From a virus: a DNA stretch of 64,000 nucleotides. Position numbers and translations under genes: made by a program. The notes under the pieces were generated by a model. That model was given only the letters and a program-made list of their open reading frames with translations, was not told where the DNA came from and did not search any database. Within the stretch, counting starts at the first letter, position 1. Every line of letters begins with the position of its first letter. Positions 34,298 through 58,261 of this stretch are shown piece after piece. Location of the stretch: positions 124,001-188,000 of IMG/VR virus record IMGVR_UViG_3300035181_000357. One strand, given 5' to 3'.

Positions 34298-34330
34298 TTG
34301 TCCATTATTAAGATTGTTTGGTAATCTAGT
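34298..34330 (+). promoter_or_regulatory. Phage promoter, TTRYCY-N18-TAATCTA class (1 of 7)
   Basis: TTGTCC (34298-34303), 18-nt spacer, then TAATCTAGT (34322-34330). It precedes the transglycosylase start by 13 nt. The same layout recurs at six other sites. Confidence 0.75.
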
Positions 34331-34342
34331 TTGGAGGTAACT

Positions 34343-34990
34343 GTGCTCAGAGATTCTCTCAAACCCAGAATTGAAGAGGCTTCGGCTTCTAAATCCTATG
34401 GTCCAGAGATTCTCCACGGTCTCATCGAGAAAGAATCCACGTACCGACCCGATGCTGTGTCAGAGACTGGTGTTCGAGGTCTATGTCAATTGACCGAGGC
34501 TACAGCGAAGGAAGTCATCCAAAAACATGGTCTGAAAATGCCGATATCAGCTATCTTAAAACCTGAAAATCAGGTGTTGTTAGCAAGTTTGCGTTTAGAA
34601 GAGATGATTGGACGAGTGGAAGCCAGGTATCCCAAGCTGTCTGAAGAAAAACAACTGGAACTCGCTCTTCATGCCTACAACGCTGGTTACTCAGCCGTTA
34701 CAACGGCAGTATCTAAAGGTGGGATAAAGGGTTTCAAGCAGTTCTTGCCTAAGACTGCTGATAAGAAATATGCGATGAAAGTAATGTTCCACAGTAAATC
34801 CTGGAAAGTAGGAAAGGTCCAGACCCAGGTTCCCACACCAAGGATTACGATCGCTCCTGAATTTTACCACTTCCTCCCATTCTTGACATTTTTATTTTTA
34901 GTATTCTACTTTGCTAAGAAGTATCAGACTACTGGTATCTTCGAGGTCGAGCCATGGGATTTGAAACAGGATGTGTTGAAGACGCTATAA
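34343..34990 (+). CDS. Lytic transglycosylase (SLT fold) with C-terminal membrane helix
   Basis: 215 residues from GTG 34343, chosen because GGAGG ends 6 nt before it; an in-frame TTG 12 nt upstream lies on the ribosome site and is rejected. The SLT pattern is clear: LIEKESTYRPDAVSETGVRGLCQLTEATA (catalytic Glu in IEKES, G-x-R-G-L-x-Q-L), then ALHAYNAGYSAVT. Residues ~180-198 (FYHFLPFLTFLFLVFYF) form a membrane span. It cleaves the glycan backbone of peptidoglycan, and the anchor suggests action at the inner membrane. It is the first gene after a class promoter. Confidence 0.85.
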   Translation: MLRDSLKPRIEEASASKSYGPEILHGLIEKESTYRPDAVSETGVRGLCQLTEATAKEVIQKHGLKMPISAILKPENQVLLASLRLEEMIGRVEARYPKLSEEKQLELALHAYNAGYSAVTTAVSKGGIKGFKQFLPKTADKKYAMKVMFHSKSWKVGKVQTQVPTPRITIAPEFYHFLPFLTFLFLVFYFAKKYQTTGIFEVEPWDLKQDVLKTL

Positions 34991-35256
34991 TCCTCATCCA
35001 TCAGATGAAGAGTGAGTTTCTCGGTGATCTGGAAGGGCATAATAAGTTAGCTAACGAGGTGATCGCTACTCTCCGAGTAGAAGGCCCACGTATAGAGAAA
35101 AATAGAGATGTATTAGGGATCATAAACTTCCAATTGGTGAGATTGGCTGTATGTATACCAGATGAATTTGATGATCATCCACTGGTAGAGAAATTCAAGG
35201 ACAAGGTGCAGGATCTCTGCAATTGTTATGATGGTGGATTGGATTCCGGGGACTAA
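34954..35256 (+). CDS. Small acidic protein, unknown
   Basis: 100 residues, overlapping the transglycosylase 3' end by 37 bases in another frame, with GAGGT before the ATG. Mostly helical and acidic with four Cys. No family recognised; expressed with the transglycosylase. Confidence 0.5.
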   Translation: MGFETGCVEDAIILIHQMKSEFLGDLEGHNKLANEVIATLRVEGPRIEKNRDVLGIINFQLVRLAVCIPDEFDDHPLVEKFKDKVQDLCNCYDGGLDSGD

Positions 35257-35288
35257 AGAACTTTAGATCTCTTATGTAGAGAGTTTTG

Positions 35289-36110
35289 ATGTTCAAATCC
35301 CAGTTACTTAAGACAGCTGCTCCACCAGATCTTAATCCTAAGATCAGATATGTCTATCTCGGTGCGGAAGCTGCCAAGCTGATTCGTGATCTGGAGAAAT
35401 GTAAGGGTAAATTCCTAATACTTGAAGGTGTAGCAGGAGTATCCTCCAGCGCAGGTATCTTCCACAGCTTTGGAAATATAGATGTCACAATTCCATATAG
35501 AGAATTCCTATCGTTAAATAACGTGGAAAGAGTAGACTATAAGGATCATGACGACATAGTAAAGAATACAGCTATGTTCTACTCCAGGATTGTTGATGGT
35601 GAGTTGGTCGAAGCAAATTATTATGTCATCAGGGGAATTATATCATCTGTCCTATATGATAAGATGGATTCAGGAAAATTAAAATATCTAGCTAGTAAAG
35701 ATTTCGATGAATGGCATGAAGTATCTAATGGATATCGCTGGACAGACCACCATCAATCTACTCTACAAAAGATGCTCCGGAAGACTTCATTCGACAGTGT
35801 TAATGAATTGGTATGGTTTATTTTGATGTTCCTAGAACGAACTCTAAAATGTTGGGATCAATTTACAGACAAAGATATCAACAAGATTGAAGAAGTGTTG
35901 AGATCTGGGGTAAAGGATAAGATAAGACAGAGTACTGGATATACAGGTGAAAAAGAACTGATCATTATGGATAAGAGATTGGTGTTACCTCATGGGACTT
36001 CAATACACCATCTATATAATAAGATCATAGCACAGGATGGTAGTGGATATCTATTCGAGAAACTAAGAAAATTTGGAATAACCATGCCTGACGGTGACGA
36101 CGATGTTTAG
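35289..36110 (+). CDS. Paralogue pair member A with MFKxxLLK leader
   Basis: 273 residues from ATG 35289 (the TTG one codon earlier is not needed). N-terminus MFKSQLLKTAAPP. It aligns along its length with the next gene: RYVYLG, LILEGVAGVS, PYREFLSLNNVERVDY, IVKNTAMFYSR, FDSVNELVWFILMFLERT, ELIIMDKRLVLPHGT. No known domain was found. The tandem copy indicates a recent duplication. The shared leader occurs again at 62304, which suggests a common targeting or processing signal. Confidence 0.6.
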   Translation: MFKSQLLKTAAPPDLNPKIRYVYLGAEAAKLIRDLEKCKGKFLILEGVAGVSSSAGIFHSFGNIDVTIPYREFLSLNNVERVDYKDHDDIVKNTAMFYSRIVDGELVEANYYVIRGIISSVLYDKMDSGKLKYLASKDFDEWHEVSNGYRWTDHHQSTLQKMLRKTSFDSVNELVWFILMFLERTLKCWDQFTDKDINKIEEVLRSGVKDKIRQSTGYTGEKELIIMDKRLVLPHGTSIHHLYNKIIAQDGSGYLFEKLRKFGITMPDGDDDV

Positions 36111-36984
36111 ATCTAGTCTCTTAAAATCAGCTGCTCCTCCTAAGATGGATAAGAGGATAAAGTACGTATACCTAGGTCCAGATCATAGAAAATTTCTTAG
36201 AGATCTTCTAGAATCCAAGGGACGAAATCTCATCCTAAAGGGTGTAGTAGGGGTTTCCACAAACAAGAATATACTACATGAGTTCGGTGACTTTGGTATG
36301 ACAATGCCATATCAAGATTTTCTGAGACTCAACAATGTTGAGAGAATCGACTACAATAATCACAATGAGATAGTAAAGAACACGAACATGTTCTATAACA
36401 GAATGATCCATGGGTTCTTACAAGAGGCTAGTCCGAGTATCCTTAGCAATATCATGTATAGTATCCTAGGTGGTCTAGCTAGAGCATCTGAGATGAAAGA
36501 CCTATATAAGGTATTAAATCCACGAAAACTTATCCCGCCATTTGCTGAATCCGGGTATTACATTCAGACCTTCTATAAAGATTTCTGTGAACTGGTTGAT
36601 ACCACATCATTCGATAGTATAAATGAACTCGTATGGTTCACCATGATGTTCTTGGAGAAGACGTGGTCAGCATGGAAGAAACTAACTCAGAAAGATATAA
36701 ATCTTATAGAAAAGACCATAAGATACATAGTCAAGAAAAAGATAAAGGATGACGCTGATGCGTTCGCTCACGAGGAAGAAATTTTGATCATGGATCAGAA
36801 GCTCGTAGTACCTCGCGGTACGAAGATAGAAAATGGCCTCGGATACATCTTGGGTGGTAGGAAAGATCTAGATATTTTGATGGCAAAATTGAAGCAATTT
36901 GATCTCGTCTTAGAAGAAGGTGAGATGCTTGAACTCGAGATCCGAGTAGAGAATAATAAGAAGACATTGTCTTTAGCCAAATAG
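36103..36984 (+). CDS. Paralogue pair member B with MFRxxLLK leader
   Basis: 293 residues. I place the start at ATG 36103 because the protein then begins MFRSSLLKSAAPP, matching member A; a GTG 9 nt upstream is in frame but adds residues absent in A. Shared blocks: KYVYLG, LILKGVVGVS, LRLNNVERIDY, IVKNTNMFYNR, FDSINELVWFTMMFLEKT, EILIMDQKLVVPRGT. It overlaps the end of gene A by 8 bases. Unknown function. Confidence 0.6.
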   Translation: MFRSSLLKSAAPPKMDKRIKYVYLGPDHRKFLRDLLESKGRNLILKGVVGVSTNKNILHEFGDFGMTMPYQDFLRLNNVERIDYNNHNEIVKNTNMFYNRMIHGFLQEASPSILSNIMYSILGGLARASEMKDLYKVLNPRKLIPPFAESGYYIQTFYKDFCELVDTTSFDSINELVWFTMMFLEKTWSAWKKLTQKDINLIEKTIRYIVKKKIKDDADAFAHEEEILIMDQKLVVPRGTKIENGLGYILGGRKDLDILMAKLKQFDLVLEEGEMLELEIRVENNKKTLSLAK

Positions 36985-37012
36985 CCTCTGGTAATTACTA
37001 TCTGAGGTATAT

Positions 37013-37408
37013 GTGTGTAAATGGTCTAGAGGGTTTGACGTAGCATCTGCTGCAGCTAAGCATTCTAATGCTCCATTCACTCGTGTACGTATGGGTGCCG
37101 CACTGTTTAGTGGTTCAAGATTGGTGAGTCTTGGATTCAATACCTATTACAAATCACATCCAGATCACCATGCACATGGTAGGGTAGGCCGTTGTTTCGA
37201 GAACATCCATGCAGAACAAGGTGCTCTGATCAAGAGAAAGCACTATGAGGATACTAACCTTATTATGTATGTGTGGCGGGAACTTGAATCTGGTCAGGCG
37301 GCTAGTTCCAAGCCTTGCCCGATGTGTATGACCTTAATGACTAAGGCTGGTGTGAAAAAGGTTAGATTTATGGAAATTGACGGTTCCTGGGCTGAAATCA
37401 AACTTTAG
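37013..37408 (+). CDS. Cytidine/dCMP deaminase-fold protein
   Basis: 131 residues, GTG start 5 nt after GAGG (the ATG 2 nt upstream is in another frame). The zinc signature is complete: NIHAEQGAL (H-A-E) at ~60-68 and SKPCPMCMTLM (P-C-x-x-C) at ~98-108. This is the short single-domain form. Such phage enzymes usually convert dCMP to dUMP or cytidine to uridine for nucleotide supply; an RNA or DNA editing role cannot be excluded. It is the last gene before a class promoter. Confidence 0.8.
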   Translation: MCKWSRGFDVASAAAKHSNAPFTRVRMGAALFSGSRLVSLGFNTYYKSHPDHHAHGRVGRCFENIHAEQGALIKRKHYEDTNLIMYVWRELESGQAASSKPCPMCMTLMTKAGVKKVRFMEIDGSWAEIKL

Positions 37409-37441
37409 TTACCCAGAACAGTAATTCTTACGTAATCTATT
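37409..37441 (+). promoter_or_regulatory. Phage promoter, TTRYCY-N18-TAATCTA class (2 of 7)
   Basis: TTACCC (37409-37414), 18-nt spacer, TAATCTATT (37433-37441), starting directly after the deaminase stop codon and 36 nt before the next start. Confidence 0.7.
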
Positions 37442-37476
37442 CCAGAGCGATGATGCTCATCTCCACGAGGAATCCC

Positions 37477-37713
37477 ATGCAGAAGCTGGTCAATCCTATC
37501 CTGATCGCCAACAAGCCTGAGACCTTCACTCCCTACCAGGTTCGCCAGGTCCAGAAGTTGTCTGAGAAGTTCCAGATGGTTTCGATCCCTGAAGCCGACC
37601 TGAACCGTACCCAGAAGGCTCCCCTGTCGGTCCTGTTCTACGACTGCAATGGGAAGCTGAACCTGTACCGCATCGGCCAGCATAACGTCCTCGGGAAGCG
37701 GGTTACTCGGTAA
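37477..37713 (+). CDS. Small early-type protein, unknown
   Basis: 78 residues from ATG 37477, which has CGAGG 6 nt before it; the longer reading from 37450 lacks a ribosome site. Compact alpha/beta composition with YQVRQVQKLSEKFQM and LSVLFYDCNGKLNLYRIG. From here to ~47.25 kb the codons are visibly richer in C and G at third positions than in the structural block. Confidence 0.55.
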   Translation: MQKLVNPILIANKPETFTPYQVRQVQKLSEKFQMVSIPEADLNRTQKAPLSVLFYDCNGKLNLYRIGQHNVLGKRVTR

Positions 37714-37738
37714 ATCTACTGTTCAGAACCCCAATTCA

Positions 37739-37771
37739 TTGTCCAAAACGGTAAGAATCGCGTAATCTAGT
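37739..37771 (+). promoter_or_regulatory. Phage promoter, TTRYCY-N18-TAATCTA class (3 of 7)
   Basis: TTGTCC (37739-37744), 18-nt spacer, TAATCTAGT (37763-37771). GGAGGT and ATG 37788 follow at once, giving a very short leader. Confidence 0.75.
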
Positions 37772-37787
37772 GTTCTGGAGGTGTTAA

Positions 37788-38474
37788 ATGGCTAAGACTG
37801 CCGTGATCGACGTGTTCGGTGCTGCCCCTGTGGTGCCCAGCAAGAGGAAGGCTGAAAAGGGTGAAAAGCCTGGTATCGAGTCCGGTGTGGCTCTCGCCAA
37901 GGTCGCCGCCATCGACTTCATCATGAAGTCTCTGAAGGGTGTTCGCGAGACCTACGAAGGCATGCTCAAAGACGAGATGCTGGACAAGTTCGTGGAAACT
38001 GGCCTGGCTGGTCAGAAGCGTCCAGACAACTACCGTGGTGTGAACGGTAAGGGTGAAGCTAGCTGCGAGATGCGCAAGCGTTCCACGGCATCACCTCTGT
38101 CGGATGATGAAGTGTCTGAGCTTGCGAAGCTCGGCATCGAAATCAAGCTGGAAACCGTGCAGGAAGAGATGTTCGTGTTCAACGCTGAAGTGCTGAAGAA
38201 CCCTGAACTTCGGGCCAAGATCTCGGCAGCTTTCGCCAAGATCGACTTCGGTGACATCCAGCCCATCTCCAAGATCGAAGCCCAGCAGAAGTACGTGGCC
38301 TCTGAGGAAGCGATCGAGGAAGTGTTCAAGAAGTCCAAGACCCAGGCGATCGGCTCCAAGTTGCTGTCGATGCTCACGACCCTGGCGGTCAAGAGCAAGT
38401 GGAATGGTAATAAGTCTGATGCCTACGCTCTCCTCGCGGAAGAGGACAGCATCACCTCGGTCACTCTGTCCTAA
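37788..38474 (+). CDS. Charged alpha-helical protein, unknown
   Basis: 228 residues, rich in A/E/K, no membrane span. A basic segment SKRKAEKGEKPG is near the N-terminus; long amphipathic helices follow. Strong promoter, strong GGAGGT and biased codons point to high early expression. Stop and the next start overlap (TAATG), so it is coupled to the ligase-like gene. Possible nucleic-acid binding, not shown. Confidence 0.55.
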   Translation: MAKTAVIDVFGAAPVVPSKRKAEKGEKPGIESGVALAKVAAIDFIMKSLKGVRETYEGMLKDEMLDKFVETGLAGQKRPDNYRGVNGKGEASCEMRKRSTASPLSDDEVSELAKLGIEIKLETVQEEMFVFNAEVLKNPELRAKISAAFAKIDFGDIQPISKIEAQQKYVASEEAIEEVFKKSKTQAIGSKLLSMLTTLAVKSKWNGNKSDAYALLAEEDSITSVTLS

Positions 38475-39058
38475 TGTTCTACCCTCCTCGTCCAGAGAAG
38501 GCTGTCGATCCATCCGAGTTGGGGCGATTTGAATCACTCGGATGGATCGGTCAGTTCAAGAAGAATGGTACGTACACTGTACCGGATAGAGAGAAGGTCT
38601 ACACGAGGCATCTCGAACCTCACAAGTTGTGGAACCCAAACGACAGCAAGGCGATGACAGAGATCCGAAAGATTCCTGGGATCACTCTCTGTTCCGAACT
38701 CCTTCATAAGAAGGTTAGTGGTGGAAGCCAGGATACTCTGTACATACATGACATCCTCGTCATCAACAACGAAGATCTCGTTGGAGTATCCTACGAAGAC
38801 AGGTACAAGATGCTGTTGAATTTGTTCGTATGGAAAGATGAAGGAAACCCTGACTATTTTGTCGTAAACAAGAATCTATGGATCAGCAAGTGGATCTACA
38901 AAGGTTTCCTGAAAACGTTCAATGCCATGACCAATCCTGAAGATGAAGGTTTGGTTCTGAAGAATCCCAAAGCCAAACTGGCTTTCTGTGGTAAACCAGG
39001 AAGTAACAGTAGTTGGCAGATTAAGTGTCGCCGACCCCATAAGAATTACAGCTTCTGA
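38474..39058 (+). CDS. Minimal ATP-dependent ligase-like nucleotidyltransferase
   Basis: 194 residues. Motif I is QFKKNGTYT (K-x-N-G, with Lys as the adenylated residue). Motif III-like YIHDILVINNEDL, motif IV EGLVLKNP (EG-x-V-x-K) and motif V QIKCRRPHKNY follow in the correct order. Only the nucleotidyltransferase domain is present; there is no OB fold. It could seal RNA or DNA nicks, or act with a partner. The later RNA ligase at 57134 is of a different subfamily. It shares an operon with the charged protein before it. Confidence 0.75.
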   Translation: MFYPPRPEKAVDPSELGRFESLGWIGQFKKNGTYTVPDREKVYTRHLEPHKLWNPNDSKAMTEIRKIPGITLCSELLHKKVSGGSQDTLYIHDILVINNEDLVGVSYEDRYKMLLNLFVWKDEGNPDYFVVNKNLWISKWIYKGFLKTFNAMTNPEDEGLVLKNPKAKLAFCGKPGSNSSWQIKCRRPHKNYSF

Positions 39059-39073
39059 ATTGACCATTAAAAG

Positions 39074-39106
39074 TTACCTATTAGAGAAATGACCAAGTAA
39101 TCTAGT
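39074..39106 (+). promoter_or_regulatory. Phage promoter, TTRYCY-N18-TAATCTA class (4 of 7)
   Basis: TTACCT (39074-39079), 18-nt spacer, TAATCTAGT (39098-39106), followed by GAGGAGG and the rIIA start at 39124. Confidence 0.75.
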
Positions 39107-39123
39107 GGGTCGAGGAGGAAATA

Positions 39124-41271
39124 ATGAAGCTGAGTGGCGTGCAGGAAGCGGGTTCGGTTCAGGTGATGGCACCTGGTGTCCAGAGAACCTTCCAGATCCA
39201 CAATAACATCAAGTCCTTCAGGATCCTGTCTGATGGCCTTTACAGTGATAAAATCACTGCGGTTATCCGGGAACTGTCCTGCAATGCCTGGGATTCTCAT
39301 GTGGCAGCTGGTAAGAAGACCGTGCCATTCGAGGTCCATTTCCCCACTGGCCTGGAACCCTGGTTCAGCGTCCGTGACTTCGGGATCGGTCTTTGTGAAG
39401 AGGACATCTACGACCTCTACACCACGTACTTCAGTTCCAGCAAGGACCAGTCGAACGAGTTCATCGGTGCACTCGGTCTCGGTTCCAAGTCTCCCTTCTC
39501 GTACTGTGAGACTTTCACGGTAACTTCGAACTTCAATGGTTCGAAGCAGATCTTCAGTGCTTTCATCAGCGAAGAAGGTCTCCCGACCATCATCAAGATG
39601 CACGAAGAGACTACGACTGAAGGCAATGGCCTGGAAGTCAAGTTCCCGGTGAAGCGTGATGACATCAGCAACTTCCACTACAAGGGTGCCAATGTCTTCG
39701 AGTTCTTCGAAGTCGCTCCCAAGCATAATCTCAGTGGACAGCGTATTCCCAAGAACGACTACATCCTTAAGGGTATCGTGGATGGGTGCTGGTGGGGGAT
39801 TCGTGCTGGTGCTGGCAACGTTCGTGCCGTCATGGGATCCATCTCCTATCCTCTCGATCTGAGTGGGCATGGTCTCAGCTCTGAAGAGCAGACTGTCGCC
39901 GCCTGTGGTATCGATATCCAGTTCAATCTTGGGGATCTCGAGATCGCTGCCAGCCGTGAAAAGCTGTCCTTCAACAAGATCACGATCGCCAACGTGACCA
40001 AGCGTTATCGTGCCATTTTCGAGCAGATGAACAAAGAGATCCACGACAAGCTCGATGCCGCTACCACTGTGTGGGATGCTCGCAAGGCTCTCTTCTTGAT
40101 GACGAATGACCAGTCGGTTGGTCGCATCGTTCGCAACCTGATCCAGACCAACTCGATCAAGGGCAAATACACCAACTTCGAGTTCGATGGTAGTACCTCT
40201 GGATCTTTCAAGGCCACGGAGTATCCGGAACTGAATGTCATCGGTGTCTCTCCTGCTTCTGGGATCTGGGCCAAGAAGAATCTGTATTCCAGTGACTACA
40301 AGGTTAAGATCGAAGCCTCTAGCAGTCAGCGATTCATCCTGAACGATATGTTCCGTGGTCACAACCAGATCCTCGCTGAACTGGTCAAGGATGGTAGTCG
40401 CTTCATCATGCTGACTCCTCGCAAACTCAAGGATCTCTCGGATGACGAGAAGGTCGAGGCTGCAAAGCTGGCTGCTGAACAGGTCGAGAAGTTCATGGCG
40501 AACTTCGAAGGTGCCAAGCTCGAGAAGATCAGCGACTACCATGATCTGCTTGAAAAGCGTGTCCCAGGTGAAAAGAAGACCCGGATTCGCAAGAACTACT
40601 TCCACTACGTCGGTAATAAGACCTGGGGTGGTTCGTTTGAGCACATCCCCGACGCCGAGTTCGATACGGCTACCGATGGCGATGTCTTGTTCTTCCCAAT
40701 TCACAACATGAAGCCAGCCCAGGACCGTATGGAGCAGGAAAGTGCCGAGGATTTCAGCACCTTCATCTATCGGCTTCGTCAGGCCGGGATCATAGGCAAG
40801 GATACCAAGCTGGTCGCCTACAAGGTTCGGGAAGAGTTCGAGATCTCTGAGCCTGAGAAGGATCTGCTCACTTTCGTGGACGAGACTATCGCCAAGAAGC
40901 TGACCGATCCCAAGATCGCTAGCTACTACAACGATGACAATTCCTTCACTGTCCCCGATCTCTTCAACTCCTATGAGATCTGGAACACTCGCAAGGGCAC
41001 AAAGGGTCAGGCTTTCTTCGCTACCAAGTTCGGTGCCTTGATGGCCGAATACCGAGAGTACAAGGATGGCCGGGACAAGAATTCTGAATTCATTCGTATG
41101 TGCTACACCCTTGGTATCAAGAAGCAGAAGAGTATGTTCACCAAGGATCTGGCCGATAAGTGCAAGAAAGTTGCCACCAAGTATCCCATGCTCAGTCTTC
41201 TCCAAACCTACTACATCGCCAACAACCTTGAAATTCTAACCGATTACCTGAATCTCGTTGATTCTCAGTAA
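39124..41271 (+). CDS. rIIA: rIIA-like GHKL-ATPase protein
   Basis: 715 residues, close to T4 rIIA (725). The N-terminal GHKL fold shows the N box RELSCNAWDSH (~49-59), the G1 box VRDFGIGL (~82-89) and G2 GALGLGSKSPF (~111-121). The rest is unassigned as in T4. It is followed directly by the rIIB homologue, the classic gene pair. T4 rII proteins protect infected cells from RexAB exclusion and act at the membrane; the role here is by homology. A 712-codon open frame on the opposite strand is a by-product of codon bias. Confidence 0.85.
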   Translation: MKLSGVQEAGSVQVMAPGVQRTFQIHNNIKSFRILSDGLYSDKITAVIRELSCNAWDSHVAAGKKTVPFEVHFPTGLEPWFSVRDFGIGLCEEDIYDLYTTYFSSSKDQSNEFIGALGLGSKSPFSYCETFTVTSNFNGSKQIFSAFISEEGLPTIIKMHEETTTEGNGLEVKFPVKRDDISNFHYKGANVFEFFEVAPKHNLSGQRIPKNDYILKGIVDGCWWGIRAGAGNVRAVMGSISYPLDLSGHGLSSEEQTVAACGIDIQFNLGDLEIAASREKLSFNKITIANVTKRYRAIFEQMNKEIHDKLDAATTVWDARKALFLMTNDQSVGRIVRNLIQTNSIKGKYTNFEFDGSTSGSFKATEYPELNVIGVSPASGIWAKKNLYSSDYKVKIEASSSQRFILNDMFRGHNQILAELVKDGSRFIMLTPRKLKDLSDDEKVEAAKLAAEQVEKFMANFEGAKLEKISDYHDLLEKRVPGEKKTRIRKNYFHYVGNKTWGGSFEHIPDAEFDTATDGDVLFFPIHNMKPAQDRMEQESAEDFSTFIYRLRQAGIIGKDTKLVAYKVREEFEISEPEKDLLTFVDETIAKKLTDPKIASYYNDDNSFTVPDLFNSYEIWNTRKGTKGQAFFATKFGALMAEYREYKDGRDKNSEFIRMCYTLGIKKQKSMFTKDLADKCKKVATKYPMLSLLQTYYIANNLEILTDYLNLVDSQ

Positions 41272-41292
41272 TCCAACCCAGAAGGAGATACC

Positions 41293-42408
41293 ATGTTTCC
41301 AATGATCATCACCAAGTCGTATATCAATCTCGTGATTGGTGGACGCTCTCGAACGGTGGAAGCTTCCAACAAGTTCTTCCCTCAGCTTCTTGATGCAGTC
41401 AAGAACCAGGCTTGGGAGGCTGTTGATACGCTCTCCGATCTGGCCCAGGCCATCAACAAGGCTGGTGCTGGCAAGGTCGTGGTCGAAGACGGTGTTGTCT
41501 TCTACGATGGTATGCCTGTCCACAACATCGTCGCCACCAGAATCCTGGACATGCTGGCCGAGGGTTGGACTGTGGATCCTATGATCAAGTTCTTGGAGAA
41601 CCTGCTCCAGAACCCTGTGGCATCTGCCATCGATGAGCTCTATCTCTTCATGGAAGCCAATTCCCTGCCTCTGACTCCGGATGGACATTTCCTGGCCTAC
41701 AAGGTGGTCACTTCCAACTTCAAGGACAAGCAGACCAAGACCTTTGACAATTCGGTCGGTGCTGTCCTGGATATGGATCGTGCCAAGTGCGATCTGGATC
41801 GGAACAACCATTGCAGTAGTGGTTTCCACTTCTGTGGCTTCAGCTATCTCTGTCACTTCGGTTCTGCCGATGACCAGATCATGATCGTCAAAGTGAATCC
41901 CAAGGATGTCACCAGCATTCCTAGCGACTACCAGAATGCCAAGGGTCGTGCCTGTCACTATGTGATCCAGGAGCACTACGGCAAGTTCAGTGACTTCTTC
42001 GAAGTCGATCGTCTGGCCACTGCGGCTGTCACCGAGACCAGTGAGATCGAGTTCCTTGCTGTCGAAGGCAATCCCATTCGTAGCCTTCGTGAGCTTCTCG
42101 GATTCAGCCAGCGCGAAGTGGCCGAGTATGCTGGCTACAGCAAGTCAACGCTGTGGAATGCCGAGCAGATCTCCAACACTCCCAAGGTCGAGACGATGGA
42201 TCGCTGGGCCCAGGCCATGACCGATCTTCGCAACGAGCGAGACGAGACGAGTGTTCGTAAGTACACCTTCAAGATCGATGAAGCCATTCGCATCATGATC
42301 GAGACCCTCCCAAGCGAGGACGAGGCTGAATTCGAAACCTCCTTGAGTGACTTCGAGCCTGAATACTGCGAGGACTGTGATCAGGATCTCGACGACTGCG
42401 ACTGTTAA
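41293..42408 (+). CDS. rIIB: rIIB-like protein with a helix-turn-helix insert
   Basis: 371 residues, GGAGATACC before ATG. Core rIIB motifs: MIKFLENLLQNP, DELYLFMEANSLPLTPDGHFLAYKVV, NSVGAVLDMDRAKCDLDRN, CSSGFHFCGFSYLCHFG. At ~262-291 there is an XRE-type helix-turn-helix (LRELLGFSQREVAEYAGYSK), followed by an acidic tail with CEDCDQDLDDCDC. T4 rIIB (312 residues) ends differently, so the added DNA-binding-like segment is notable. It follows rIIA by 21 nt and precedes a terminator. Confidence 0.85.
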   Translation: MFPMIITKSYINLVIGGRSRTVEASNKFFPQLLDAVKNQAWEAVDTLSDLAQAINKAGAGKVVVEDGVVFYDGMPVHNIVATRILDMLAEGWTVDPMIKFLENLLQNPVASAIDELYLFMEANSLPLTPDGHFLAYKVVTSNFKDKQTKTFDNSVGAVLDMDRAKCDLDRNNHCSSGFHFCGFSYLCHFGSADDQIMIVKVNPKDVTSIPSDYQNAKGRACHYVIQEHYGKFSDFFEVDRLATAAVTETSEIEFLAVEGNPIRSLRELLGFSQREVAEYAGYSKSTLWNAEQISNTPKVETMDRWAQAMTDLRNERDETSVRKYTFKIDEAIRIMIETLPSEDEAEFETSLSDFEPEYCEDCDQDLDDCDC

Positions 42409-42432
42409 GTCCTACAATCCCAATGACTTCCG

Positions 42433-42454
42433 ATGGGGCCTTAAGTGGCCCCAT
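42433..42454 (+). terminator. Terminator after rIIB
   Basis: ATGGGGCC (42433-42440) / GGCCCCAT (42447-42454), 8 GC-rich pairs with a 6-nt loop, followed by TTCATT. It ends the rII operon before the next class promoter. Confidence 0.8.
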
Positions 42455-42470
42455 TTCATTGGTTAAGAAA

Positions 42471-42503
42471 TTATCCTGAATGGTAAGAACCCAGTAATAT
42501 AGT
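42471..42503 (+). promoter_or_regulatory. Phage promoter, TTRYCY-N18-TAATATA variant (5 of 7)
   Basis: TTATCC (42471-42476), 18-nt spacer, TAATATAGT (42495-42503), directly between the rIIB terminator and the next gene. Confidence 0.7.
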
Positions 42504-42521
42504 TTCTTGAGGAGAATCGCC

Positions 42522-42923
42522 ATGATCACCACCATCAGCCGTTCTGACATGTCTGTCCTTCGTTCCGAGGTCAATGCGGCCATCGCCGCTGTCGCCACCA
42601 AACATGGTCTGGTGATGGCCCTGGGATCCGGGAAGTTCAATGAAAAGAACGCTTCCTTCAAGCTCGAGATCTCCACCAAGGATCAGAATACTGGGATGGT
42701 GAAGAGCAGGGAAGCCACCAGCTTCGAAGTCAATGCCCATTTCTACGGCTTCAAGGCCGAGGATCTCGGTACCACCTTCAAATCGAATGGTCGGACTTTC
42801 AAGATCACGGGTCTCAACACTCGTCGTCCCAAGTTCCCTCTCCTGGCTGTCTGTGTGGAAGATGGGCGAACCTACAAGTTCCCTGACACGACCGTCCTGG
42901 CCTACCTTGGCCGAAAGAAGTAA
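42522..42923 (+). CDS. Small conserved-looking phage protein, unknown
   Basis: 133 residues from ATG 42522; a TTG at 42507 in frame overlaps the GAGGAG ribosome site and is rejected. Beta-rich second half (FKSNGRTFKITGLNTRRPKF, VCVEDGRTYKFPD) looks like a small barrel that could bind nucleic acid. First gene of an operon with the receiver-like protein and the 267-residue protein. Confidence 0.55.
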   Translation: MITTISRSDMSVLRSEVNAAIAAVATKHGLVMALGSGKFNEKNASFKLEISTKDQNTGMVKSREATSFEVNAHFYGFKAEDLGTTFKSNGRTFKITGLNTRRPKFPLLAVCVEDGRTYKFPDTTVLAYLGRKK

Positions 42924-42925
42924 CG

Positions 42926-43282
42926 ATGCTCAAGGTCCTGTTCATCGACGATCAGATCGAGCGTGTGGAAGCTGCTAAAGCGTATCTGACCAGAGAGGGG
43001 GACGAATTCACCTGGGCTACTGAAGTCCCCAACAACCTCGAAGACTACGACATCATCTCTTTCGATAACGATCTCGGTGTTGCTCCTGAAAAGGATGTCG
43101 TGATCCAGTTGGGTAAGCGTCTGTTCTGTGGTAACTGTTCTCTCGCGAACAAGATCATCACGGTCCATTCTATGAACCCTGTGGCCGCTGCCCGTATTGG
43201 AAGCTTGTGTGAAGGTTTGGGTGCCACCAATGTGGCCATCGTTCCCTTCTCTCGTATGTTGTTAGGTCCCAACCAGTTGTAG
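42926..43282 (+). CDS. Cyclic-phosphate-processing receiver-like (cREC) protein
   Basis: 118 residues with a receiver fold: VLFIDDQ at 4-10 (acidic pair), YDIISFDNDLG at ~41-51 (phosphoacceptor-like Asp in a SFDNDLG context), ITVHSMNPVAAARIG at ~78-92. These H-S-M-N-P and D-N-D-L-G signatures are those of the cREC/cyclic-phosphate processing domain, which is found beside RNA ligases and kinases and is proposed to process cyclic phosphate ends. It starts 2 nt after the previous stop. It fits the RNA-repair set elsewhere in the window. Confidence 0.7.
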   Translation: MLKVLFIDDQIERVEAAKAYLTREGDEFTWATEVPNNLEDYDIISFDNDLGVAPEKDVVIQLGKRLFCGNCSLANKIITVHSMNPVAAARIGSLCEGLGATNVAIVPFSRMLLGPNQL

Positions 43283-43290
43283 GAGTTGTG

Positions 43291-44091
43291 GTGCACAAGT
43301 TCTATTCTGACCGTTCCGATAACGATGACCACGCCGATCAGAACGGCTGGAACCATGGTCTTGGTAAGGTTGTTCGCAAGGCCGTTCAGGATCCTGAGGC
43401 TACTGCCTACGATAGCTTGGATTCCCTTCCGAAGCACGAAAACAACCACAAACGCCTTGGGTACTGGGGACATCGTCGTCCCAACATCCACTGGCGAAAG
43501 GTCAATCGTTGGGTTCTGGCCCAGGTTGGTAGGCATATCGACGATGTCCGTTCTGAGTTCATCAAACTGGCCAACGAAGGTGATCCCTACATCCGTGAAC
43601 GCCTCGTCTCAGCTTTCGAATCCAATGTCCCGACCATCCGTGGGCAGATTGAAATCTGCATCAGCAAAGAGGGTGGATGGCCATACCTTGGTCTGGTTAC
43701 TGAAACCGGGCACATCGAAAAGAGCTACTACCGTCGTCGAGATCTGTACATCAATCTCTCTGGGATCATCTGTCAGGTTTCCAACAAGACGTACAAGGAG
43801 CTTGAACGCCTTCAGGAGAAGCAGCGGAAGGAAAGCAACAACAAGGTTATCTGGGTTAATGATGTCCGAGGTTTCATCTGTCTCCGGGATCAGTGGTTCG
43901 AAGTCATCTATGCTAAGTTGAACTCTGATTTCAATCGCAATCTTCTTAGCCTTGACTGTCTTCTGTGTCGGAAGCTGAAGAAGAGCTGGTATAACTCGCA
44001 CCTCGAAGTCTTCGGTCATCTCCACGGTAATATCTACTGTGTCGCCCTTCGGTCTGTGTCTTATCGAGATATCGAAAAACTTCTTGTGTAG
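43291..44091 (+). CDS. Trp-rich basic protein, unknown
   Basis: 266 residues from the second of two adjacent GTG codons (43291), because TAGGAG lies 5 nt before it and only 2 nt before the first. Aromatic and basic, with GYWGHRRPNIHWRKVNRWVL and CLLCRKLKKSW (C-x-x-C). Unknown family. Its 3' end (about 80 bases) has a degraded copy at 44330-44412. Confidence 0.55.
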   Translation: MHKFYSDRSDNDDHADQNGWNHGLGKVVRKAVQDPEATAYDSLDSLPKHENNHKRLGYWGHRRPNIHWRKVNRWVLAQVGRHIDDVRSEFIKLANEGDPYIRERLVSAFESNVPTIRGQIEICISKEGGWPYLGLVTETGHIEKSYYRRRDLYINLSGIICQVSNKTYKELERLQEKQRKESNNKVIWVNDVRGFICLRDQWFEVIYAKLNSDFNRNLLSLDCLLCRKLKKSWYNSHLEVFGHLHGNIYCVALRSVSYRDIEKLLV

Positions 44092-52612: not shown

Positions 52613-55052
52613 TCCTTTAACTGGTTTCGAAAATGATCCAAAGGTATCGAATTGTATTCGTGCTTTCGCTGAACATCCAGAGATTGCTGAAGAGATTAAA
52701 GCATACTATATCCTAGAAAAGGTAGACGATGATGGATATACAGAAGACCGTCATCTCATAGCAGAAACCACCTGGAAGACTGGTGATTTCATTCATTTCA
52801 CACATAAGATTGTAGGTAGAGACTTTCAAGATCCATATGAAGGTCACGAAGGTCCTACTGATGGTAGAGATTTTGAAGGTCAGTTTGCTATAATCCCAAA
52901 GAAGAGAGCAAAGAAGATCATAGATTTTCAGAAAGCTTTAGGAAAAGTTACTAAATATAGAAATCTTGAAGATATCCCAAAGAGAGAAGACATGAAGAAG
53001 AAATCTAGACTAGTGACTAAAAAATCTACCGGACCTACTTTGTATTCAAAGTTAGAAGATATCAAAAATGAAATCGATAAATATCTGAAGTGGGATCATG
53101 TCAATGACGACACAAATGAAGATATTCCAGAAGACAATATCACTGCCTCCTATAGACTGTATACAAAAGAAGGAATCATCATATTCTCTGTATCAGTCTT
53201 TGATAAGACGAAGAATGGAAATGAGATCTTCACCGGATTCTCTAAGCCAGGATCCGAACAATTTGAGAACACTGGTCTATATAATTTCAACAACGTGAAC
53301 AAGATGCTGAAGAATGTAGCTAATGTCGCAGCTACAAAATATCATATCGAGGAAGCACCTGTCGAAGATCTTCCAGAGATGGGTAACGATGATGACAAAG
53401 AATTCCTAAAGTCGATCGGGATTCGTTCTAGTCAGAAGAAGGCATATGCTCCTAATGTAGCTCAGGCAGCTAACACTTTTTTAGAGAAATACATTGGAAA
53501 GATTCTGTCTCCGAGTGAGTTGAAGGAAGCTATATCTTCCGTATCTAGTTCCTGGAAAGATGTAGTAAACTACATGAAAGATTTCAGTTTGATAGTACCT
53601 GATGGGAATAATTTTAAGATCTTAAATAGAGATATGGTGGATGACATGAAGATTCGTACTGGTTCAAAACATGCAGCAACTAGCCCAACTCCTCCTGGAG
53701 CTGCGTTGGTATCAGCGATCAAAAATCGTAAACAGAACCCTGAAGATTTCGAGACATTCAAGGCCTTGTTTAATGCCTTTAAAGAAGATTTCAGTGCAAC
53801 CAGCGGTCAGGAAGGATGCTACTACATCATGGAGCGTCTAGGATTCTTAGAGAAGGATATAAATCCTCTCTTAGGTTTGGGTAGTACTGGAACTCCTGAA
53901 GAGAAGTTCGTCAGAAATTATTGGGATGAAGTGAACCGTCAGTATGATGAAAAGAAGAATCAAGATCGTACTACCAAGTATGGCCCAGACTTAGTGGCTC
54001 TCTGTAAGGAAGTTTATGCCTACGCAAACCAGCCTGAGAATTACGAGAATGGCTGGGACACGGTTGCAGAAGCTTGGGACCTAGAAGAACTGGCTGAAGA
54101 GATTAAGGACTGCAAGACCTTGGATGAAGCTCTCTCGATTATGAAGCAATACAAGACAGCATCCTCAAAGACTGGTAAGCAGAAACGCTCGAGATTGATG
54201 AAGCGCAGAGCAGGGATCGAGTTAGATTGGGATCCAGCTACCAGAAGAGACATAGGTAGAGAAGAAGCCAGAGCTAGTGACAAGATCCTAAGAGATCTCG
54301 GCACATATGTAGAGAAATTAAAATCTAGCCTGATACAAAATGGTGTATCTCTTGGCCAAGCTCTATCAAACATGAATCTGAAAGAGTTATTCACCTCTAC
54401 TGACTATACAAAGAGATCGCTCGGTAACAAGTTGAGATCACAGACAGAACAGTTCCTAAAGAACTATCCAGAGAAGGAACAGAACTTCTTTAAAGAGAAT
54501 TATGGACAGAACATTTCAGATATTCTAAGAAAAGTGGTAAAGACTAGTAATATAGATCCACAGATGTATGATATCAAACCTGATATCTCTCAAGATGTAT
54601 TGGAGAAGAAGTCCATGGATGCAGATCGTTACTATGGTGGACCTGACGAGAGTGGTCCAGATCCCGACGAAGTTACACAAGCACTAGTCTCTAAGTTCCC
54701 AATGGCTTTAGGGTTCATTTCTCAGAAGATAGATCCTCAGAGTCCTGACTGGGATATCATGAATAAAGTCAGTGACGAGATGTATCCAAAGGAATTTATC
54801 GACAGAGTAGAGGTTGATCTTTGGGATGGTGATGACGTATACTATTTCGATTATGATGTAGACGCTTCTGAGATTGAGCAGATCAATGCCAATTTCTTGA
54901 AGAGACAACATGAGTTGGGTTCTACGAATCCTGAACCTCTCTGCAAGCTCGAACTCGTCCCATATCACGAGCTACCCAATAAGGTCATTGAGAAGCTAGA
55001 AGAAGACTTCGAAGACTATGTGGACCTGGATCCTGAACCATGGGTTGATTAA
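52605..55052 (+). CDS. Large charged protein, unknown (815 aa)
   Basis: Alternating Lys- and Asp/Glu-rich segments, no membrane span, no recognised fold. Residues ~270-370 are an Ala/Ser helical block (YAPNVAQAANTFLEKYIGKIL). Two short basic repeats, KKSRLVTKK (~128) and KRSRLMKRR (~528), look like cleavage or binding sites between blocks, and the C-terminus is very acidic (EEDFEDYVDLDPEPW). Multi-block charged proteins in large phages are often injected internal virion proteins or scaffolds; this is only a possibility. Confidence 0.55.
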   Translation: MYNPLTGFENDPKVSNCIRAFAEHPEIAEEIKAYYILEKVDDDGYTEDRHLIAETTWKTGDFIHFTHKIVGRDFQDPYEGHEGPTDGRDFEGQFAIIPKKRAKKIIDFQKALGKVTKYRNLEDIPKREDMKKKSRLVTKKSTGPTLYSKLEDIKNEIDKYLKWDHVNDDTNEDIPEDNITASYRLYTKEGIIIFSVSVFDKTKNGNEIFTGFSKPGSEQFENTGLYNFNNVNKMLKNVANVAATKYHIEEAPVEDLPEMGNDDDKEFLKSIGIRSSQKKAYAPNVAQAANTFLEKYIGKILSPSELKEAISSVSSSWKDVVNYMKDFSLIVPDGNNFKILNRDMVDDMKIRTGSKHAATSPTPPGAALVSAIKNRKQNPEDFETFKALFNAFKEDFSATSGQEGCYYIMERLGFLEKDINPLLGLGSTGTPEEKFVRNYWDEVNRQYDEKKNQDRTTKYGPDLVALCKEVYAYANQPENYENGWDTVAEAWDLEELAEEIKDCKTLDEALSIMKQYKTASSKTGKQKRSRLMKRRAGIELDWDPATRRDIGREEARASDKILRDLGTYVEKLKSSLIQNGVSLGQALSNMNLKELFTSTDYTKRSLGNKLRSQTEQFLKNYPEKEQNFFKENYGQNISDILRKVVKTSNIDPQMYDIKPDISQDVLEKKSMDADRYYGGPDESGPDPDEVTQALVSKFPMALGFISQKIDPQSPDWDIMNKVSDEMYPKEFIDRVEVDLWDGDDVYYFDYDVDASEIEQINANFLKRQHELGSTNPEPLCKLELVPYHELPNKVIEKLEEDFEDYVDLDPEPWVD

Positions 55053-55078: not shown

Positions 55079-55111
55079 TTGTCTCCTGGTACCATAAAAC
55101 GGTAATCTAGT
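55079..55111 (+). promoter_or_regulatory. Phage promoter, TTRYCY-N18-TAATCTA class (6 of 7)
   Basis: TTGTCT (55079-55084), 18-nt spacer, TAATCTAGT (55103-55111), before GGAGGT and the gene at 55135. It probably drives the operon through the RNA kinase, Nudix and RNA ligase genes. Confidence 0.75.
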
Positions 55112-55134
55112 CTAGTTCCTTTCTGGAGGTAGAC

Positions 55135-55641
55135 ATGCTGTTAATCAACCAGTGTCCAGTTTGTGGTGCTAGCACTCGTGAACATAAGCCTGGTGGAGAA
55201 TATCCTGGATACAAGGAGACTAGGAACCAGTGTCTTGGTTGTGAACCTGGTCGTCCCAAGCAGATCACGATGCTCTATACCACAAGCGATGCTGGCAACA
55301 AGCCTTGCTACACCCATTTCAAGGCGTCTTCTGACTATCGAGAGATCCAGAAGCATCTCCGAGAGAACAGCACAACGATGGGTTTCTCCATCCAGTACGC
55401 CTACAATCCTGATACCAAGCACGTGGTATCAATCATGGTTAAGGGTAAGATGGGCTTGAAGCTTACCAAGAAATTCGTGGAACTCGGATACAGTGAATGG
55501 TTCTATTCTCATTCTTTCAGTACCAAGAAATTCCTGCTTCCCAGTGGTGAAGTCGTAACCTTGAAGCCTGAGGACGACCTCGACCTCGTGTCAACAACCG
55601 ACATAATGCCCTGGGCACGTGCCTTCGGATATGTCAACTAG
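55135..55641 (+). CDS. Zinc-ribbon protein, unknown
   Basis: 168 residues. CPVCG at 7-11 and CLGC at ~33-36 form a Cys4 ribbon. The remainder is alpha/beta with no known signature. It has the C/G-ending codon bias of the other early-type genes and is first after a class promoter. Confidence 0.6.
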   Translation: MLLINQCPVCGASTREHKPGGEYPGYKETRNQCLGCEPGRPKQITMLYTTSDAGNKPCYTHFKASSDYREIQKHLRENSTTMGFSIQYAYNPDTKHVVSIMVKGKMGLKLTKKFVELGYSEWFYSHSFSTKKFLLPSGEVVTLKPEDDLDLVSTTDIMPWARAFGYVN

Positions 55642-55652
55642 GAGAAGAACAA

Positions 55653-55982
55653 ATGTCTGATTACGATGGAAACGATCTCAGTGTCCTCGCTGTCCTCGGA
55701 GTGATCGTCGCTATCCCCCTAACCATTATCACCACAGGATATACTCTTTCTGTGTTGTGGGGATGGTTCGTCCTTCGACTCTTCCCAAGCCTTCCTCCTC
55801 TCTCGATTCCTCTGGCTGTCGGGTTGTCGATGACAGTTCGCTATGTCACCAACCAGAGCTTCGATTGTGCCAAGGACGATAGCAAGAGTCCAGTCGAAAA
55901 GCTGATCTACGCTATCTTCACTCCCTTCGCCACATGTGGATTCGTACTGTTGTTTGGTTGGATCCTCCTCAAGTTCATGTAA
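55653..55982 (+). CDS. Membrane protein
   Basis: 109 residues with two or three hydrophobic spans (LSVLAVLGVIVAIPLTIITTGYTL, LFPSLPPLSIPLAVGLSM, FATCGFVLLFGWILLKF). GGAGAAG ribosome site. Unknown role; in the operon leading to the RNA kinase. Confidence 0.6.
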   Translation: MSDYDGNDLSVLAVLGVIVAIPLTIITTGYTLSVLWGWFVLRLFPSLPPLSIPLAVGLSMTVRYVTNQSFDCAKDDSKSPVEKLIYAIFTPFATCGFVLLFGWILLKFM

Positions 55983-55991
55983 GAGGCTACC

Positions 55992-56246
55992 ATGTTCCAT
56001 GGAAGTACCAGGAGTGATTTTGCTCTGAGTATGATTCAGGCTCGAGAGATGAACGTGGATCCTGAGATCATGCGATTGCTCGAAGATTTCGAAGCTGCGT
56101 ACGAACGAGCTTTCAAGTTTGCGATCGAACTCAAGAAACATAAGAATTTTGAAGACATCGGTGAACTACTCCGGCTTGAACTTTTCGGAGACAAAGAAGC
56201 TATCGATGATCTCTATAAAGAAATCAAAAACCGAAAGAGGGTGTAG
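55992..56246 (+). CDS. Small helical protein, unknown
   Basis: 84 residues, nearly all helix, with acidic and basic faces (LLEDFEAAYERAFKFAIELKKHKNFE). Starts 9 nt after the membrane protein. No family recognised. Confidence 0.5.
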   Translation: MFHGSTRSDFALSMIQAREMNVDPEIMRLLEDFEAAYERAFKFAIELKKHKNFEDIGELLRLELFGDKEAIDDLYKEIKNRKRV

Positions 56247-56247
56247 T

Positions 56248-56742
56248 TTGAAGAAGTCGCATAAGGTCATCATCCTGGCTGGTATCCCTGGTTCTGGAAA
56301 ATCCACCTATATTGAAGGTCTGATGAAGACTTTCAGTGAAGACATCTCGGTATCTATCGTGTCTGCCGATCACTATTTCATCAAGTACGGTACGTACAAG
56401 TATGTGGCACATGATATCCCACATGCTCACAAGCAGTGTCAGAACAGGTTCTCTGACGCTCTGGACATGGACGTTGACGTTATCTTTGTAGACAACACCA
56501 ACATCCTGAGTAAGCATCGCAAGCCATACGTCCAGGAGGCTCTGGATTGTGGCTATGAGGTTGAGATTCATGCTCTTCCTGCAGATGTCGAGGCTAGTGC
56601 AAGTAGGAACATTCACGGTGTGGACCTGGATGTCTGTCAGCGAATGTTCGATTCTTTCGATCTGGAGTTTGGAACTATCTACGACCATAAGCGTCAGAAG
56701 ATTGGGACTATCACCAAGGAACAGGTAGGCTTGAGTGGCTAA
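56248..56742 (+). CDS. P-loop polynucleotide kinase-like protein
   Basis: 164 residues from TTG 56248 (GAGGGTG just upstream; previous stop 1 nt before). Walker A AGIPGSGKST at 11-20, VSADHYF at ~41-47, then AHKQCQNRF and VIFVDNTNILSKHRKPYVQEAL. This is the AAA_33/N4BP2L-type pattern of RNA 5'-kinases (P-loop, S-A-D-H/D, D-N-T-N). It would phosphorylate RNA 5'-OH ends before ligation. It is coupled to the Nudix gene (8-base overlap) and then the RNA ligase: a repair operon. Confidence 0.75.
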   Translation: MKKSHKVIILAGIPGSGKSTYIEGLMKTFSEDISVSIVSADHYFIKYGTYKYVAHDIPHAHKQCQNRFSDALDMDVDVIFVDNTNILSKHRKPYVQEALDCGYEVEIHALPADVEASASRNIHGVDLDVCQRMFDSFDLEFGTIYDHKRQKIGTITKEQVGLSG

Positions 56743-57130
56743 ACAGCTATCATGTGGTGTCCTGGTTACACACAAGAATTCACTTCTTCTATGTCATGTA
56801 ACTGGGACTTACAATCGTTGGGATATTCCTAAAGGAATGCCTAATGATGGAGAAGATCACGTAGCTGCTGCTGTTCGAGAACTCAACGAAGAAACAGGGA
56901 TTGTACTCGGTGTTAACTACAGAGAGTTGGGTTACACCGAGTACACCAAGACGAAGGATTTGTTCCTTCTCTACCATGAAGGTCTGTACGAAGTATCGGA
57001 TATGACCTGTTTGTCGTTCTTTGAAGATGATCGTCCAGAGATGGATGGTTTTAGGTATTTTGATTTTAATGAAATTGTTGGCCACGTCACACCTAATCTG
57101 TATAAGGTATTGACTAAGTTCTTAGGGTGA
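56735..57130 (+). CDS. Nudix hydrolase
   Basis: 131 residues, GTG start overlapping the kinase end. Complete Nudix box GMPNDGEDHVAAAVRELNEETGI (G-x5-E-x7-RE-x2-EE-x-G), preceded by RWDIPK, the W-x-x-P-K signature of Ap4A/mRNA-end-type Nudix enzymes. Candidate substrates are Ap4A, 5'-triphosphate or NAD-capped RNA ends. Lying between RNA kinase and RNA ligase, processing of RNA 5' ends or of adenylylated by-products is a reasonable inference. Confidence 0.85.
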   Translation: MAKQLSCGVLVTHKNSLLLCHVTGTYNRWDIPKGMPNDGEDHVAAAVRELNEETGIVLGVNYRELGYTEYTKTKDLFLLYHEGLYEVSDMTCLSFFEDDRPEMDGFRYFDFNEIVGHVTPNLYKVLTKFLG

Positions 57131-57133
57131 GTT

Positions 57134-58225
57134 ATGGAAAGAAAGCTAGTAACTATTAGAGAGATCGCTGCAGTGAATCCTATCCCCGATGCAGATGCCA
57201 TCGAGGTGGTAACTGTAGATGGATGGAAAGTGGTCTCCAAGAAAAATGAGTTCAAGCCAGGAGATCTCTGCCTATACTTCGAGATCGACAGCTTCCTACC
57301 TATCAAGCCAGAGTATGAGTTTCTGCGTAAGAGTAGCTACAAGAAGGTCATCGATGGTACGGAAGGATTCAGACTCAAGACCGTAAAACTGCGTGGTCAG
57401 ATCAGCCAAGGTCTGGTTATGCCTATCTCAGAAGATATTCTGAAGACTCTGGCTCCAGTAGCTAGTTCGGATCTCAGGACTCTTCTGGACCAAGATCTCA
57501 CCGAGTTGTTTGGTGTGACCAAGTGGGAGCCACCTCTGTCTGCCTGTCTTTCTGGGTTGGTTAAGGGTAACTTCCCATCACATACTCCGAAGTCTGGCCA
57601 GGAGCGTATCCAGAATCTGAAATACTTCTTCGAACTCTATAAAGATGAAGAGTTCGAGATGAGTCTGAAACTCGATGGAAGTTCATGCACTATGTATTTG
57701 GATCGAGAGGATGTCTTTGGAGTCTGTTCACGTAATCTGGATCTGAAACCAGACGAGAGCAATAGCTTCTGGAAACAAGCCTATATTCATGGTGTTGAAG
57801 ACAGACTCAAGATAATTCATTCTGTATCTGGGTTGAATCTCAGTATCCAAGCTGAATTGGTTGGGGAAGGAATTCAGGAGAACCACGAGAAGATCAAGGG
57901 CCAAGATCTGTATGTCTTCAATATCTGGGACCAACACCTCGGACGATCCTTGACCCCATCTGAACGACATGCTACACTGGATGCTCTAAACGATCTCCAG
58001 GTCTTAGGTTCCAAGCCACTTAAACATGTCCCTGTAATTGGGTATGAGAAGGTCTTCACCAAGTATCAGACACTAGAAGCTCTCTTTGAATTCGTGGAAA
58101 GCCTAGCTGGGATGAATCCTGGTGTAATCCTCGAAGGCGTAGTGTTCAAGAGTGTAAGACCTATAAATGGTAGCATTGTAAGCTTTAAGATCGTCAGCAA
58201 TAAGTACCTTCTTTCCAAGAAATAA
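57134..58225 (+). CDS. RNA ligase, DraRnl/Rnl5-like
   Basis: 363 residues. The N-terminal ~110 residues form the OB-like domain of the Deinococcus Rnl family (TIREIAAVNPIPDADAIEVV, VDGWKVVSKKNEFKPGDLCLY). The nucleotidyltransferase domain has motif I SLKLDGSSCTMY (K-x-D-G-S-S), motif IIIa-like LYVFNIWD, motif IV LEGVVFKS and motif V VSFKIVSNKYL. It joins 3'-OH and 5'-phosphate ends, sealing breaks with at least one RNA strand. It sits directly before the tRNA array, as expected for a tRNA-repair enzyme against anticodon nucleases. Confidence 0.9.
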   Translation: MERKLVTIREIAAVNPIPDADAIEVVTVDGWKVVSKKNEFKPGDLCLYFEIDSFLPIKPEYEFLRKSSYKKVIDGTEGFRLKTVKLRGQISQGLVMPISEDILKTLAPVASSDLRTLLDQDLTELFGVTKWEPPLSACLSGLVKGNFPSHTPKSGQERIQNLKYFFELYKDEEFEMSLKLDGSSCTMYLDREDVFGVCSRNLDLKPDESNSFWKQAYIHGVEDRLKIIHSVSGLNLSIQAELVGEGIQENHEKIKGQDLYVFNIWDQHLGRSLTPSERHATLDALNDLQVLGSKPLKHVPVIGYEKVFTKYQTLEALFEFVESLAGMNPGVILEGVVFKSVRPINGSIVSFKIVSNKYLLSKK

Positions 58226-58228
58226 GAA

Positions 58229-58261
58229 TTGTCTGATTTACGAATTATTAAGTAACCTAAT
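58229..58261 (+). promoter_or_regulatory. Phage promoter, TTRYCY-N18-TAACCTA variant (7 of 7), tRNA array
   Basis: TTGTCT (58229-58234), 18-nt spacer, TAACCTAAT (58253-58261), immediately after the RNA ligase stop and before the structured leader of the array. No coding gene follows for about 2.7 kb, so it should drive the tRNA/tmRNA transcript. Confidence 0.7.

Follow-up and report, generated by a model that had tools for sequence, protein, structure and literature searches.

T4-like phages carry early promoters whose sequence logos are specific to the lineage, with A-11 and T-7 conserved and an A-rich element at -40 to -44, and these promoters are found before new open reading frames (ORFs) and tRNA genes (PMC1524935). 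The phages phiEco32 and 7-11 have rigid, phage-specific promoter boxes whose letters vary between relatives: the 7-11 sigma reads GTAAtg-16-aCTA, and its relative phiEco32 has tAATGTAtA at similar genome positions (PMC8948821). The middle promoters of T4 (MotA) are bipartite and consist of a Mot box at -30 and a TATAAT -10 box. Here we describe a set of sites of the form TTRYCY-N18-TAAYMTA in a 64,000-nucleotide (nt) stretch of DNA from a giant soil phage (the window), which corresponds to bases 124001-188000 of the 210,611-base record IMGVR_UViG_3300035181_000357. A first-pass annotation had proposed that seven such sites are promoters of a single specificity, distinct from sigma70 and from T4 middle/late boxes, and that they mark an early or middle regulon. 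Our analysis suggests that the sites are probably, though by no means certainly, T4-type early promoters that are read by host RNA polymerase and in which the -10 box is respelled from TATACTAG to TAATCTAG.

The record is a member of a giant-phage family for which a single isolate was found, Tunturi_5, whose host is an acidobacterium (Tunturiibacter). Among deposited terminases, the nearest is from Tunturiibacter phage Tunturi_5 (47%), whose capsid protein is 67% identical. No match to deposited phages was detected at the DNA level, and a search for the host through phage contigs in genome assemblies found none. Many more members of the family are present in IMG/VR. The sole close relative, G001, is known as a fragment (rIIA 89%, capsid 88% and DNA ~70% identity). 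No paper linking TAATCTA to a phage promoter was found in the literature, and the main text of the Tunturi paper (PMC11924767) makes no mention of promoters or sigma factors. For this family, in which Tunturi_5 on Tunturiibacter is the only isolate and host found, the sites provide a promoter map.

Placement and anatomy of the sites

When both strands of the window were searched, exact matches to the motif were found at seven sites only, all on the plus strand and each with exactly 18 nt between the two boxes, in agreement with the first-pass annotation. Site 1 (34298-34328, TTGTCC-N18-TAATCTA) is followed by GGAGG and by a GTG at 34343 that begins a gene of 215 amino acids with an SLT transglycosylase domain. 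Site 2 (37409-37439, TTACCC-N18-TAATCTA) precedes an 87-residue ORF at 37450, and site 3 (37739-37769, TTGTCC-N18-TAATCTA) is followed by GGAGG and an ATG at 37788 (228 residues). Site 4 (39074-39104, TTACCT-N18-TAATCTA) precedes rIIA, an early-type gene at 39124-41271 on the plus strand (PHROG 612, E 1.8e-124). Sites 5 (42471-42501, TTATCC-N18-TAATATA) and 6 (55079-55109, TTGTCT-N18-TAATCTA) are followed by ATG codons at 42522 (133 residues) and 55135 (168 residues), respectively, and site 7 (58229-58259, TTGTCT-N18-TAACCTA) stands before the non-coding leader of an array of tRNA and transfer-messenger RNA (tmRNA) genes. With rIIA, small new ORFs, the SLT-domain gene and the tRNA/tmRNA array behind them, the sites would form a regulon of early type, in support of the early or middle regulon that had been proposed.

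In the complete record, nine exact matches were detected compared to 0.33 expected (mean of 200 order-2 Markov sequences, maximum 2). The two beyond the window, at genome 202440(-) and 203068(-), each face an ORF of their own, and all nine point toward a gene or the tRNA array. Any other spacer from 5 to 40 nt gave 0-3 matches in the whole record. By weight matrix, exactly ten sites scored at least 23 bits (range 23-35), namely the nine exact matches and a one-mismatch site at genome 93182(-) (TTACTC-N18-TAATCTA); the next genome matches reached at most 15.6 bits, ignoring one-base shifts of the ten, and the shuffle maximum was 13.5. Since this matrix was trained on the same ten sites, a matrix built from six G001 sites alone is the weightier test. 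By this approach, seven of the ten sites took ranks 1-7 in the genome and two further sites ranks 10 and 14, with genome 179079 (window 55079) not among the top 16. A possible eleventh site at genome 92362(-) (TTGTTC-N18-TAAGATA), 42 nt before a gene, ranked eighth with the G001 matrix.

None of the ten sites lies inside a called gene, and the promoter assignment of the first-pass annotation thus withstood the search for matches within genes. For six of the ten, 8-20 nt separate the end of the modelled site from the called start; the small ORFs after genome 161409, 202440 and 203068 were missed by the gene caller. Regions with several motif sites are richer in G+C (47-51%, at genome 160-168 kb and 200-204 kb) than the genome (41.5%), and the first of these corresponds to window positions of about 36000-44000.

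Based on 16 sites from this phage and G001, the motif is longer than first noted and consists of an A-rich stretch, rTTRYCY, N17 and the ten-base core GTAATCTAGT, with a ribosome site closely downstream. The core hardly varies; the spacer shows no conservation beyond weak preferences. From -8 to -2 relative to the -35 box (about -44 to -38), no other base outnumbers A at any position. All 16 sites keep TA...T and the spacer of 18, and the -10 hexamer is TAATCT in nearly all and TATAAT in none. The weakest site is that at 58229 (TAACCTAAT), and those at 37409 and 55079 also match less well. For six of the seven window sites, the start codon lies 10-25 nt past the seven-base box, and a transcript would therefore start at the ribosome site or immediately ahead of it.

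This layout is similar to that of T4-type early promoters (T4, RB69, RB49, 44RR, RB43 and Aeh1) in its A-rich -40 to -44 element, its -35 box at -36 to -31, the 18-nt spacer, the retention of A-11 and T-7, the location before rII-type genes, new ORFs and tRNA genes, and a logo particular to the phage (PMC1524935). By contrast to those promoters, the -10 box is TAATCT, the sites number only about ten, the 10-bp core is near-invariant, and the class is known here from sequence alone. As no TATAAT-like -10 box is present, we refer to the class as T4-early-like and do not file it as a member of the T4 type. The sites are bipartite like T4 middle promoters, but neither a Mot box nor TATAAT is seen in the 16-site logo. 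Rigid boxes that differ between relatives at similar positions, together with a likely phage sigma gene, are shared with phiEco32 and 7-11, but the promoters of those phages are middle/late and proven to be sigma-dependent (PMC8948821). The proposed difference from sigma70 holds in part. The TAATCT hexamer is distinct from TATAAT, and the motif had no promoter-like match in the bacterial and archaeal genomes scanned; however, sigma70-family early promoters have the same spacing, T-12/A-11/T-7 and A-rich stretch upstream, and TATAMT promoters stand before some of these genes in distant relatives.

The rigid core may instead be in part an operator. In this case, early genes would be switched off or timed by a phage regulator that occupies GTAATCTAGT, perhaps along with the upstream box, over a promoter that is otherwise ordinary and weak. 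The two boxes are indeed alike (AGTTATCCA / AAGTAATCTA, 7/9 positions, with a chance of about 0.013 by simple simulation), which is a hint only, and relatives too have rigid cores that reach past -10 (G028, GTGGTATACTG..AAGT). However, a search of the core for an inverted repeat found no dyad, the sites face downstream genes directly before ribosome sites in the manner of promoters, and no regulator was identified. We consider an operator of this kind quite improbable.

Probable early promoters in relatives of the phage

In G001, six sites were found, of which five are exact and one is near. All but one of the six precede homologues of the genes behind sites 1 to 5: a one-mismatch counterpart of site 1 at 53031, and sites at 54832 (site 2), 56690 (site 3), 58074 (site 4) and 54394 (site 5, where the homologous gene is relocated). 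The spacers are unrelated between the two phages. This maintenance of sites at homologous genes while spacers diverge supports the proposal of one shared specificity.

In more distant family members no set of TAATCTA sites was detected, and the single matches were at chance level. Among viral contigs the motif was found only in the close relative and as two single matches without a ribosome site after them. De novo searches instead revealed other early classes in the same position, including TATACA-N18-TATAAT in G016, TGGACA-N18-TATACTAG in G025, TGGTATACTG in G028, GGTATAAT in G007 and two classes in Tunturi_5. These classes resemble that of this phage in their place before the ribosome site, in some of the genes they precede and, for G016 and G025, in 18-nt spacing; their letters are lineage-specific and unlike TAATCTA. 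The two promoter-like classes of Tunturi_5 are distinct from each other and highly conserved: one is TCATCTTT-N12/15-GTAGGTTG, with 26 exact matches, all before starts, and the other GATAWTC..GGGTATTA.

Sigma70-like (TATAMT) promoters were found in G016, G028, G007 and G025 at rIIA, rIIB and the counterparts of the genes that follow sites 3 and 5, with one or two relatives at each such gene carrying a TATAMT-type promoter where this phage has TAATCTA or a variant. At rIIA, G016 has TATACA-N18-TATACT and G028 has TGGTATACTG, both sigma70-like; at the gene of site 3, G007 has GGTATAATG; and the G025 homologue of the site 5 gene has TGGACA-N18-TATACT. Before rIIB (41293), this phage has a probable divergent variant of the site on the plus strand, TTACCT-N19-TAATCCA (41244-41275), with one mismatch and a spacer of 19; G016 and G028 each have a promoter of their own early class before rIIB. 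TATAMT near gene starts was clearly in excess in four relatives (observed vs expected, 15/4.8, 22/8.0, 17/5.6 and 20/4.5) but not in this phage (10 vs 8.0), counts that depend on a simple home-made gene caller which misses some small ORFs; the direction of the result is expected to hold despite the caller. Thus, the TAATCTA class fills the place of the sigma70-like early promoter. Canonical sigma70 sites were also considered as the early class of this phage and were rejected, as near-consensus sites are not clearly enriched. The same genes, with promoters in place and their sequence respelled, provide a natural series in which it can be tested how a whole promoter set shifts specificity together, and whether the shift is driven by host or phage.

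If the sites are T4-type early promoters read by host polymerase, their layout would be that of the sigma family, with an A-rich element at about -44 to -38, the -35 box TTRYCY at -36 to -31, 18 nt, and the -10 box TAATCT at -12 to -7 within the near-invariant core. Transcription would begin about 6-7 nt past the -10 box, immediately ahead of the ribosome site. As infection begins, host core polymerase with a primary-type sigma would transcribe rIIA, the tRNA array and the genes for small host-takeover proteins. Structural and other genes would then be transcribed from a distinct promoter of late type, for which the phage's own sigma is the probable reader. The ancestral early promoter of the family was probably TATAMT-like, and in this phage and G001 the whole set would have been respelled together.

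Several observations weigh against recognition by host polymerase. TAATCT and TATAAT share only 3 of 6 positions, and a standard primary sigma does not require the near-invariance seen at A-10, T-9, C-8 and the flanking G and GT. When ~85,000 bacterial and archaeal genomes were scanned, no promoter-like match of the strict motif was found; five isolated matches were returned, three of them inside long opposite-strand ORFs and none with a ribosome site and start after it. In addition, the weakest site is also the sole one at a tRNA array. A primary sigma would accept TATAAT, no site uses it and none of the genomes scanned had the strict motif as a promoter; therefore, something fixes the spelling. 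Candidates are an unusual host sigma, a phage factor and the overlapping operator considered above. For the first of these, the host would have a primary sigma with a TATAAT equivalent close to TAATCT, and the phage would copy host promoters. In its favour, the one isolated relative of this 41.5% G+C phage infects an acidobacterium; however, the five matches to the strict motif in the bacterial and archaeal collection were non-promoter, and we regard this explanation as very improbable.

Late-type motif and sigma-like protein

A second motif, RACTTC-N5/6-CTWTTRTGA, was recovered de novo in this phage with a log-likelihood of 151 compared to 86-100 in shuffles. It was also recovered de novo in Tunturi_5, G016 and G007 (with the early class masked) and in G021. 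The motif is termed late-type because in Tunturi_5 it precedes the sheath and other structural genes, and it may be used to annotate late genes. An example in the window, outside the reported set, is AGAACTTCTTACCTTTATGTTA at 28641-28662 on the plus strand, before a gene at 28676. The gap between the two parts of the motif is unusually short, and further examples are present at genome 83943(-) and 62568(-).

A sigma-like gene at genome 48323-49132(-) encodes a protein 28% identical to Tunturi_5 gp3, which is annotated as a sigma factor. Homologues of gp3 were found in most family members examined, with and without TAATCTA. An AlphaFold2 model of the G001 copy, built from 12 sequences, was of middling confidence (predicted local distance difference test score, pLDDT, 69; predicted template modelling score, pTM, 0.43) and showed likeness to the region 2 and region 4 domains of sigma. 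The top Foldseek matches of the model in the PDB were sigma factors, none of them below E 0.001, and with VIA all matches with Z of at least 5 (5-7.3) were sigma chains, Z remaining below 8 for a helical protein. Over the whole chain the root-mean-square deviation from sigma chains was large; single domains fit at 2.3-4.3 A. A profile of the sigma-like protein gave no credible match among the sequences of solved structures. Taken together, the modelled fold suggests that the gp3-family protein is likely a two-domain sigma. From its distribution, this sigma would fit better as the reader of the shared late-type motif than of the early one.

The sigma-like gene bears on whether a phage factor fixes the early spelling. 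Host core polymerase could be directed to the sites by a phage specificity factor, i.e., the sigma of the family or some other protein made early or carried in the virion, which would make them factor-dependent early or middle promoters. In favour of this, sigma70 does not need so rigid a core, the bacteria and archaea scanned did not show it as a promoter, the gp3-family gene is present and its G001 model resembles sigma regions 2 and 4, and phiEco32 and 7-11 offer a precedent. However, the protein occurs in relatives with and without TAATCTA, and the late-type motif matches its distribution better; moreover, if the sites were not early, no other early class would be visible in a genome that lacks clear enrichment of near-consensus sigma70 sites. 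Searches for other factors were negative in this phage: sigma70 region 2-4 domains were not detected by Pfam, the second, extracytoplasmic function (ECF)-like sigma of Tunturi_5 (gp211) has no homologue, and for multisubunit RNA polymerase there was no Pfam Rpb1_3 match (with a good control) and no DxDGD-type motif in the genome. A T7-like RNA polymerase had no Pfam match, with the control silent too, and MotA and AsiA had none, with the control genomes also below the cut-off. We view direct reading of the sites by such a factor as unlikely, if worth serious thought. A broader form of the idea, which we rate as possible but still doubtful, is that a factor of the phage lineage re-specifies the polymerase: TAATCTAGT would replace TATAMT at all early promoters, sister lineages would have their own versions, and the family would repeatedly switch its early code as a set with the late code nearly fixed.

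The tRNA array behind site 7

Site 7 is followed by an untranslated stretch of ~340 nt and then by the first tRNA at 58597. The tRNA/tmRNA array spans 58597-63933 on the plus strand and extends past the last tRNA listed in the window. Its first member, tRNA-Arg(TCT) at 58597-58712 (+), has a 39-nt insertion in the anticodon loop; it was detected with Rfam at 58 bits and missed by a default ARAGORN run. The insertion is a candidate for a small phage tRNA intron. A second tRNA-Arg(TCT), at 63332, lacks the insertion; just upstream of the tRNA at 58597 is the end of an RNA ligase gene (58225). The 0.9-kb, mostly non-coding stretch from the RNA ligase gene to tRNA-Lys at 59201 also contains an 18-nt direct repeat, ACATGTTAACGCTGTTGA, at window positions of about 58823 and 58991.

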